Below are positions 41,025-63,784 of a stretch of DNA of 64,000 nt, one piece after another. The translations under genes were made by a program, and so were the position numbers. The notes under the pieces were generated by a model. That model did no database searches and was not told where the DNA came from. It was given only the letters and a program-made list of their open reading frames with translations. Each line of letters opens with the position of its first letter. The stretch's first letter is position 1. This DNA comes from Oscillospiraceae bacterium (GTDB lineage Bacteria > Bacillota > Clostridia > Oscillospirales > Oscillospiraceae): assembly GCA_021770845.1 (NCBI GenBank), contig JAETQF010000003.1, positions 1-64,000 of the forward strand. The letters are read 5' to 3'.

Positions 41025-42083
41025 ATGCCGCCCAAGAAGAAAGCGGTGGACAACACCGCCATGCGGGAGCTGAAGCGGGCCATCAAGGAGGGCGCGCCCA
41101 AGGGGCTGTACCTCTTTTACGGGGAGGAGGCCTTCCTGCGGGACGACTGCCTGGCCCGGCTGAAGGCGGCCCTCCTGCCCCCGGGGCTGGAGGACTTCAA
41201 CCTCCACACCGCCCAGGGGAAGGAGTGCTCGGTGGACTGGATTGAGCAGGCGGTGGACTGCCTGCCCGTGATGAGTGAGCGCACCCTGGTGGTGGTCACC
41301 GACTTCGACCTGTTCGGCCAGGGGGATAAGAATAAGGAGCGGCTGGCGGAGATCCTGTCCGACCTGCCGGACTACTGCTGCCTGGTGTTTGTCTACGATC
41401 TGCTGGCCTACAAGCCGGACAAATCCAAGTTGGCCGCCCTGCTGAAACAGGAGGGGGCGGCGGTGAACTTCCAGCGGCAGGAGCAAAAGACGCTGGCGGC
41501 GTGGATCTGCCGCCAGTTTGAGAAGGCGGGCAAGTCGGTGGATTCCTCTGACGCGGAGTATCTCATCTTCCTGGTGGGGGATCTGATGCACGACCTGTCC
41601 GCCGAGATCGGCAAGATCGCCGCCTACGCCCCCAACCAGCGGGTGACAAGGGCTGACATGGATGCGGTGGCCATCCCCAAGGTGGAGGCGGTGGTGTACC
41701 AGATGACCGACGCCATGGCCCGGAAGGACTTCGACAAGGCCGCGTCGGTGCTGGCCGACCTGCTCCACAGCCGGGAGCCGGGGGTGATGATCCTGTCGGT
41801 GATGGGGAAGTATTTCCGGCAGCTCTACACCGCGCGGCTGTTCCTCGCGGCGGGCAAAAGCCGGGAGGAGTTCATGGAGTTGTGGGCCATGAAAAGCGGC
41901 TATCAGGCGGACAAGCTGCTGGGGGCGGCCAGGGGCTTCTCCCTGCCCTGGTGCCGGTACGCCGTGCGGCGGTGCGCCGAGACGGATATCCTCTTAAAAA
42001 ACTCCTACGGGCAGGAGGGCGAGGTGCTCACCGGCCTGCTTATGGAGCTGGCCTCTGGCCGTCGGGTTGTTCCTTTTTCTTGA
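41025..42083 (+). CDS. holA: DNA polymerase III delta subunit
   Basis: 352 aa. Clamp-loader subunit that opens the sliding clamp. The N-terminal AAA+-like domain shows LYLFYGEEAFLRDDCL, and the rest follows HolA. I chose ATG 41025 (MPPKKKAV) with GGGGGGC ahead; ATG 41001, which overlaps the comEC stop, is also possible. The last residues (GRRVVPFS) are encoded by a 28-nt palindromic repeat: the stop TGA lies near the centre of that palindrome, so the C-terminus seems to have been reshaped by the repeat. Confidence 0.94.
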   Translation: MPPKKKAVDNTAMRELKRAIKEGAPKGLYLFYGEEAFLRDDCLARLKAALLPPGLEDFNLHTAQGKECSVDWIEQAVDCLPVMSERTLVVVTDFDLFGQGDKNKERLAEILSDLPDYCCLVFVYDLLAYKPDKSKLAALLKQEGAAVNFQRQEQKTLAAWICRQFEKAGKSVDSSDAEYLIFLVGDLMHDLSAEIGKIAAYAPNQRVTRADMDAVAIPKVEAVVYQMTDAMARKDFDKAASVLADLLHSREPGVMILSVMGKYFRQLYTARLFLAAGKSREEFMELWAMKSGYQADKLLGAARGFSLPWCRYAVRRCAETDILLKNSYGQEGEVLTGLLMELASGRRVVPFS

Positions 42084-42096
42084 AAGAAAAAGGAAC
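42069..42096 (+). repeat. 28-nt palindrome (family 2), copy 2
   Basis: GTTCCTTTTTCTT / AAGAAAAAGGAAC-type arms (12 bp plus centre), followed by CGAAAAAGAACTTGAAG. It contains the holA stop codon. The same length, layout and tail occur in the copies at 2022 and 63645. Confidence 0.75.
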
Positions 42097-42184
42097 CGAA
42101 AAAGAACTTGAAGCCGTTACTACCGGGGGCGTGATCGTTCCGTTTCCGGTCGGCAACGGAACGGGTTAATATCGGGAGATTACT

Positions 42185-44124: not shown

Positions 44125-44170
44125 GTTAGATCACCTACGGTATGAGTTTTTGCCCTCTTGGGCAGGGGGC

Positions 44171-44953
44171 CCTGCCGGGGGCGTTCCTTTCTGCTCGTGC
44201 AGAAAGGAACCGAAAGACACGCTTAGGGGGAGGCCCGCCGGTTTGGCTCCGGGCCGAAGGGCGGCCCTGCGCTCACAGGCGGGCCTCCCCCTAAGAACCC
44301 CCTTTTTACGGGGGCTGTCAGATCGGGGGGCTTTCTGTGACCCTTTCGGCGCGGAGCGGATACCGACGCGGGAGCCCCTGTCGCCGCTGCCGCTGAGTGT
44401 GTGGGTACTGAGAAGTGGGTGGGATCCACGTCAGATGCGCCTGGGTGTCGTGTGGTGCTTCACGGGTGCGTATTGGGTGCGCTGTTTGCGGCGGGGTGGT
44501 TAGCCTGAGAGGCTTAGGCGCTGGAAAGAGAACCCCATATTTTCAGTGCTTGAGAAAGTCAGGCCCGGTGTGGGCCGGAAAAAGAAGGGAAGCCCATTCG
44601 TCACCCGCAATAGCCGGTCACTCTCCGACCACTCAAAATCGACGGTGCACCTCCCAGCGCCCCGAAACATCCACCGCACCACTTAGGCGCCAACCGAGGG
44701 AACCACCCAGGGGTTGTCCCACACACGGGCGGCAGCACCAATGGGGAGCCCACCAGTCCAGCTCCCGCGCGCCGATCACTCCCCCACCACGTAAAATCGG
44801 CGTGCCCTTGACCTTAACGGGGGTTCTTAGGGGGTGGCCAACCTGTGAGCGCAGGGCCGCCCTTCGGCCCGGAGCCGAACCGGTGGCCACCCCCTAAGCG
44901 TTCTCTTTGGTTACTTTCTCTCACGCGAGAGAAAGTAACGCCCCCAGCAGGGG
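44171..44953. repeat. Non-coding island bounded by inverted repeats
   Basis: About 780 bp between the PHP gene and the PMT gene. Left arm 44171-44312 and right arm 44818-44953 are inverted copies. From outside in, each arm has a 28-30 nt palindrome of family 2 (44183-44210 and 44910-44939), then a long stem-loop that starts CTTAGGGGG and ends CCCCCTAAG, with a well-conserved GGCTCCGGGCCGAAGGGC loop. The 505-bp interior has no credible gene on either strand and contains a degenerate 35-bp direct repeat. I can name no known element like it. Confidence 0.7.
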
Positions 44954-45008
44954 CGCCCCCCGGGGGCAGGGGGATCGGGGAAGGGGGGAGCACCCCCTCC
45001 CGGAAAAC

Positions 45009-63604: not shown

Positions 63605-63784
63605 TTTTTCCGACAGCCAAGACCGGGATCGGCCTTGGCTGCTCGTTACTTTTTCTCGAGAGAAAAAGTAACCAAAAAGAGCTTGAAGCTCGCTGACGAT
63701 AAGTGTCCGGCGACATACGTTTACGCCCGGTGACGGACGGCGGATGTGTGCGGGAAGCATTTTGATTTTAGGAGGGGCGGTTGT
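63605..63784. other. Intergenic region after the S41 protease gene
   Basis: Holds a CAGCCAAG/CTTGGCTG hairpin (63614-63641), a family 2 palindrome (63645-63672) and, near 63770, the ribosome-binding site of queH (AGGAGG). Nothing else seen. Confidence 0.6.
63645..63672 (+). repeat. 28-nt palindrome (family 2), copy 5
   Basis: GTTACTTTTTCTCG / CGAGAAAAAGTAAC-type perfect palindrome, followed by CAAAAAGAGCTTGAAG. Its arms match those of the copy at 2022. Confidence 0.75.

Follow-up and report, generated by a model that had tools for sequence, protein, structure and literature searches.

We analysed a window of 64,000 nucleotides, positions 1-64,000 of contig JAETQF010000003.1 in the Oscillospiraceae bacterium assembly GCA_021770845.1. 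At 44169-44953 the window holds an element in which two inverted arms of ~137 bp, 86% alike, enclose ~510 bp without a preserved ORF. A repeat search paired 44204-44305 with 44816-44917 (102 nt, 80% complementary, 510 nt apart) and, further out, 44165-44192 with 44930-44957 (28 nt, 86%). BLAST with the left arm returned the right arm at 44816-44952 (86%), and a covariance model built from 24 arms of the host genome placed the arms at 44169-44305 on the plus strand and 44816-44953 on the minus strand. The best distal inverted match reached 148 bits; when the same 1.6 kb was shuffled 100 times with dinucleotides preserved, no match exceeded 31.9 bits. The two inverted arms reported in a preliminary description of this DNA are thus real, and the order it gave, a short palindrome followed by a long stem-loop, is correct in both, with a small GC hairpin additionally outermost. 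Read from the outside inward, each arm consists of hp1 (the small GC hairpin), hp2 (a perfect hairpin of 12-15 bp), a short spacer and hp3 (the long stem-loop), as follows.

44169-44305, plus strand: left arm (hp1, hp2, spacer and hp3, read inward); covariance model score 147 bits, copies genome-wide
44169-44182, plus strand: hp1 of the left arm, the outer GC hairpin, from the DNA fold
44183-44210, plus strand: hp2 of the left arm, a perfect 12-bp stem, from the DNA fold and pair counts over copies
44196-44199, plus strand: CGTG on the loop side of left-arm hp2
44211-44221, plus strand: left-arm spacer, with an AAA run equal in length to the run in the hp2 stem (permutation tests over arms)
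44218-44221, plus strand: CACG of the left-arm spacer, complementary to the CGTG of hp2 (permutation tests over arms)
44222-44295, plus strand: hp3 of the left arm, a long stem-loop with exchangeable loop types (repeat search, DNA fold, arm alignment)
44306-44815, no strand: interior, homologous among copies, with no preserved ORF; the place of the small genes in gene-carrying copies
44816-44953, minus strand: right arm, the inverted copy of the left arm; covariance model score 159 bits
44826-44898, minus strand: hp3 of the right arm (repeat pair 44826-44859/44865-44898)
44899-44909, minus strand: right-arm spacer, reading CAAAGAGAACG inward, with ACGC/GCGT complementarity to the hp2 loop
44910-44939, minus strand: hp2 of the right arm
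44940-44953, minus strand: hp1 of the right arm (sequence, alignment)

The left arm folds with z = -7.1 and the whole sequence of 793 nt with z = -26.6, a value that we read as owed mainly to the arms; the interior by itself is weakly structured (z = -2.0, slightly better than shuffles). In agreement with the preliminary description, which saw no credible gene between the arms, none of five interior ORFs tracked over eight geneless copies was open throughout. A 60-aa ORF on the minus strand was open in five of the eight; stop codons interrupt it in L009 and L014, and in L016 it is frameshifted. The window gave no match to the 4227 Rfam families at gathering score and no tRNA, and a known RNA family was likewise rejected for the element, over which a permissive Rfam search returned six matches with E-values of 0.065 or worse, none near the gathering score. 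Elsewhere in the window, at 1990-2080, 42046-42130 and 63620-63700, lie three single hairpins of the hp2 type that belong to a related family. They have CTTTTTC stems, with an A-run of five in the stem as well as in the spacer, and are followed by GAGCTTGAA or GAACTTGAA; no partner arm was noticed for them.

Arms at different sites, which the preliminary description had named, together with clean empty sites, as a sign of mobility, are numerous in the host genome. BLAST with the left arm in the host MAG (2.48 Mb, 82% complete) gave at least 47 matches, with 40 of 66 candidates scored and some matches being partial self-matches of palindromes. The 19 loci examined contain at least 34 arms, which form 13 two-arm elements of 589-1434 bp and one element cut by a contig end (L005), together with six arms that have no partner, two of which lie at contig ends. 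The figure of 34 is a lower bound, and a pattern search showed hp2 copies outside the 19 loci (C9:76425 and C18:272646). Interiors have homologous segments in common, and the five other geneless full-length copies are 86-91% identical to the window copy.

Five of the 14 paired elements carry small regulator-type genes: two outward-reading genes each in L004, L008, L010 and L013, and one RHH-like gene in L005. By likeness the cargo would fall into XRE helix-turn-helix, DUF6809 and RHH-like classes. The XRE proteins match Pfam HTH_3; of two DUF6809 copies from relatives, one lies above the Pfam cut-off (L039) and one below it (L033); and of two RHH-like proteins, one is below the cut-off and the other has no Pfam match. 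The RHH-like class has weak matches to Arc repressor. At the L010 site, dN/dS among three species was ~0.03-0.09 for XRE and ~0.12-0.44 for DUF6809. Models of defence systems, run against four cargo proteins, matched only the HTH part of one. No transposase was seen by eye among the translated ORFs of 18 arm pairs from the host and its relatives, and none of the arm pairs inspected in the host and its relatives was an autonomous partner with the same ends. In the genus, DUF6809 genes occur in multiple copies; hp2 hairpins were present at none of the high-scoring DUF6809 loci examined and at several lower-scoring ones.

We compared host sites with homologous flanks in relatives after masking the element. 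In the closest relative used, the sister genome G044, arms were present at eight of 13 sites, with both flanks matched at L004, L008, L009, L010 and L014 and one flank at L005, L012 and L015, so many copies are inherited in place. The element was absent at the window, L007 and L016 sites, where flanks were 91-98% identical, and at the L003 site, where flanks were 87-89% identical with 139 bp between them. At the L002 site the sister carries a single chimeric hp2 whose halves are of two different types, which we read as a deletion scar. The preliminary description had looked to clean empty sites as support for mobility. The element is indeed missing at four of the 13 sister sites, but these sites are not clean, as the neighbouring GC-rich sequence also differs. 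No target-site duplication was seen at the compared sites, and no transposition event was observed.

The window site was sought in 42 genomes of the genus, of which 41 matched. In 15 relatives the gap between the PHP and PMT genes contained one arm in five, an arm-less remnant in one, an unrelated repeat in five, a 149-bp sequence of another kind in one, and 12-29 bp in three (29 bp in G044). The unrelated repeat, of ~100 bp (CCAAATCGAAGCCCAGCG...GGAGCTTGCGT or similar), was found in L072, L076, L079, L081 and L084, in tandem in L084. Cargo also differs between genomes at one site: at L004 the host carries DUF6809 and XRE, and the corresponding loci L065 and L069 carry XRE and RHH. By eye, the RHH protein of L065 closely resembles that at the L008/L051 site. 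At shared sites the elements have mostly diverged further than the flanking sequence, one segment of the L010 element being the exception. From the differing L004 gene pairs, the RHH likeness and this excess divergence, we infer that interiors and cargo have probably been exchanged by recombination between copies.

The preliminary description had left open a transposon, an integration or regulatory structure, and a large RNA. A non-autonomous repeat of the mobile type is best supported, because many copies occupy different sites, four of 13 sister sites lack the element and no transposase was seen. Two observations speak against a simple transposon: no target-site duplication was seen, and the sister has the element at eight of the 13 sites. 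Our main reading, to which we give a probability of about 0.72, is that the region is a copy of a dispersed, non-coding, probably non-autonomous MITE-like element, bounded by two inward-facing structured modules and spread in trans. The element family is real, repeated and MITE-like, and its end structure is unusual and widespread. The copies would be spread by a trans-acting factor for which the recognition target is the module in its folded form (hairpin, loop pseudoknot and in-register third strand), probably in single-stranded DNA. They would be retained in intergenic positions, mostly right after stop codons, where the arms may double as transcript ends, and recombination between copies would reshuffle interiors and cargo.

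The new part is the arm design, that is, the pseudoknot and mirror rule described next; gene-carrying copies also go beyond the preliminary description. The hp2 loop is complementary to bases just beyond the foot of the hairpin, past the spacer, a pairing that would have the geometry of an H-type pseudoknot. The mean longest match between loop and spacer was 3.72, compared with 2.51 ± 0.19 after permutation (0 of 5000; 46 distinct combinations from 128 arms), and 3.88 compared with 2.44 ± 0.19 in a wider set of 58 variants (0 of 2000); since variants share descent, these permutation tests and the one below overstate independence, and their probabilities are not literal. In the same 58 distinct variants, a set that required a spacer A-run of 3-5, the spacer A-run equalled the A-run of the 3' strand of the stem in 57, and the single exception comes from a truncated arm at L008, on its outer side. 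Within A-run classes the mirror match reached past the A-run (6.64 compared with 5.72 ± 0.11, 0 of 2000).

A check without any spacer condition used 11 loci of other genomes, found by a covariance model blind to the spacer rule, and the window. It gave 42 hairpin readings over both strands, and the A-runs were equal in all 21 readings that had a spacer A-run. Without one likely chance hairpin and the two arms of the window element itself, they were equal in 18 of 18, of which 15 come from other genomes and three are the single window hairpins, some of the 18 resembling variants among the 58. In eight further hairpin readings of the check set the spacer lacked an A-run. The spacer of an H-type pseudoknot folds back alongside the stem, antiparallel to the stem's 3' strand, and a mirror repeat in register with the stem would fit that course. 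It is a real possibility that the end structure represents a new type of recognition fold. Tentatively, and with the odds somewhat against us, we go further and propose an undescribed fold that crosses phyla, in which the loop would pair beyond the foot and the spacer would lie in register with the purine strand in a triplex-like manner; pairs of such folds facing each other, together with a factor that reads the fold and not the sequence, would define a class of elements, mobile or regulatory, some carrying regulator genes and others not.

Second copies of the arms in relatives, whose absence the preliminary description had named as counter-evidence, are plentiful. BLAST found the arm in 14 of 40 relatives including the host, all of the same genus, and the covariance model, whose E-values are rough, found it in 20 of the 197 genomes searched across the order, the host included (11 of 110 genera), with several of these genomes at or near 16 scored arm candidates each, as lower bounds. 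When the best 11 loci of other genomes and L142 were rescanned, seven of the 12 had an inward-facing partner arm within ~0.4-0.7 kb; by eye, the interiors of L192 and L198 have no evident likeness to that of the window. Close copies also occur in MAG and isolate records labelled Oscillospiraceae, Bacillota, uncultured bacterium and, once, Selenomonadales. A phylum-wide pattern search was set aside: it matched six of 299 genomes, and outside the genus only four genomes with one match each, which look like chance.

A typed consensus of the module matched 11 plasmid or megaplasmid records: five of Caballeronia, two of Pseudoalteromonas and one each of Paraburkholderia, Variovorax, Chitinibacter and Ilyobacter. 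The full design, with GC hairpin, hp2, loop-complementary spacer and an inverted copy ~0.5 kb away, is present in the Burkholderiaceae, in Caballeronia (L137 and L140, the latter with one mismatch in the hp2 stem) and Paraburkholderia (L168); most of these records carry no annotation. The Caballeronia element occurs at no fewer than 324 places in 14 records; in Ilyobacter the module stands alone at the one place inspected of seven. The short module query had no match in phages or E. coli genomes. A plasmid or phage origin was rejected, as the element query had no matches in plasmid or phage collections and two module patterns had none in viral contigs. Two further candidates failed in Paraburkholderia. 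An apparent autonomous 2-kb copy (L167, 22955-24877) turned out to hold a Mutator-family transposase gene (Pfam Transposase_mut) apparently inserted in one arm, and clean empty sites were not found, the L168 element being at the same site in four of five other replicons. An insertion splits the element at this site in L188, and in the fifth replicon, from P. phymatum, only the left flank matched. In L186 and L187 (Paraburkholderia caribensis) the orientation of the element relative to its flanks is opposite to that in P. largidicola, the outcome that recombination between arms would be expected to give.

We consider it rather unlikely that the arms work as RNA, either as 3'-end stabilisers or terminators of neighbouring genes or as the ends of a large structured RNA, with their spread being secondary. 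Elements do abut stop codons: by a simple coding-frame heuristic applied to 28 flanks, a gene lay within 130 bp at 18, and in 14 of these its 3' end faced the element (19 across all 28). The H-type pseudoknot geometry of the loop pairing would also suit RNA, as would the position of the Pseudoalteromonas module beside the Rfam TwoAYGGAY RNA. Against this stand the lack of any match in the window to an Rfam family at gathering score, the weak fold of the interior and the composition of the hp2 stem. RNA stems this variable normally pass through G-U pairs. In 24 arms that we chose from the 34, 98.3% of 593 cells were paired and three were G-U; cells changed on both sides numbered 37, compared with 10.9 ± 2.3 in shuffles (0 of 500), a signal that was mostly gone when pairing partners were slid; further pair types were no higher than in shuffles (339 of 500). 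Over 162 distinct arm rows, drawn from the host and from related loci, 1572 of 1588 hp2 cells were Watson-Crick, with four G-U and four A-C. Covariation almost without G-U pairs suggests that hp2 is constrained, or corrected, at the DNA level, and palindrome-perfecting template switching could be the source of part of the covariation signal.

The other stems leave more room for RNA. Over the same 162 rows, hp3 was Watson-Crick in 1218 of 1330 cells, with 14 G-U and 32 A-C when read inward and 32 G-U and 14 A-C when read outward, and the P1 pairing, read inward, in 446 of 503, with eight A-C and 22 G-U, almost all of the latter in a single column. These hp3 and P1 counts are compatible with RNA. 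For the large RNA of the preliminary description, the few G-U pairs in hp2 thus argue against RNA as the selected form, and the pseudoknot argues for a real single-strand fold.

Improbable, in our view, is a REPIN-like element moved by a RAYT/TIRYT (HUH, Y1) transposase. Inverted hairpin pairs that are extragenic and downstream of genes recall REP dimers and the long TIRs of TIRtrons, as far as these are treated in the part of PMC3733652 consulted. Y1_Tnp was matched in 16 of 42 genus genomes, among them, with one match each, the arm-bearing G007, G011, G015, G020, G044 and G048, but it was absent from 10 of the 14 arm-bearing genomes of the BLAST set, including the host MAG (G000, 82% complete), and of the 14 Y1 loci examined in the genus, some of them truncated at a contig end, none had an hp2-type hairpin or a distal inverted repeat. 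Highly improbable is a cassette system in which the two hp2 palindromes of an element serve as recombination sites for site-specific exchange of the interior: the chimeric hp2 at the L002 site of the sister and the differing cargo at the L004 site speak for it, but the scar pattern (one hp2 between GGGC and GCCC) occurred only in that one case in 42 genus genomes, on which ground routine excision at hp2 was rejected, and the scar is explained by ordinary deletion between two CACGTG centres.

The MITE-like reading places the element close to known bacterial MITEs and palindromic repeats (RUP, NEMIS, Bcr1, ERIC and RU), which are likewise dispersed and extragenic with inverted ends and no transposase of their own. 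Such repeats measure 70-300 bp with TIRs of 15-30 bp, according to the portion of PMC3733652 consulted. Unlike them, the elements here span 0.6-1.4 kb and have ~137-bp multi-hairpin arms, the pseudoknot rule and gene-carrying copies. With REP/BIME/REPIN sequences and their RAYTs, and with TIRtrons, they share hairpin units that are arranged as inverted pairs and lie mostly downstream of genes; they differ in being much larger, in showing no GTAG/CGTC tag by eye, and in that no arm-flanked Y1 gene was found. The arm design was not described in the sections seen of PMC3733652, PMC2864571, PMC4333381 and PMC11701678, nor elsewhere in the literature searched, in which subscription papers were mostly beyond reach. 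If the rule holds in the laboratory, a module of intergenic repeats recurs in Bacillota, Pseudomonadota and Fusobacteriota without a name, as far as searched. This would raise two questions: what factor recognises the pseudoknotted hairpin at the ends of an element, and how transposase-free elements gather and swap small regulator genes. Equal A-runs combined with loop-spacer complementarity make a simple signature for scanning any genome.

Two RNA families touch the module in other bacteria. The Burkholderia sRNA candidate Bp1_684 (RF02421) coincides in part with the Caballeronia zhejiangensis element, at its outer end only and at one locus; we know of no link between this candidate and the module design. 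In Pseudoalteromonas (L138) the hp2 module lies directly beside a TwoAYGGAY RNA (RF01731) at 1535-1698, a family without a match in the window or the scanned Oscillospiraceae loci. TwoAYGGAY RNA has been proposed to bind CsrA, as stated in the part of PMC4333381 consulted. A second, partial TwoAYGGAY match lies in L138 at 1961-2027, in the opposite orientation.
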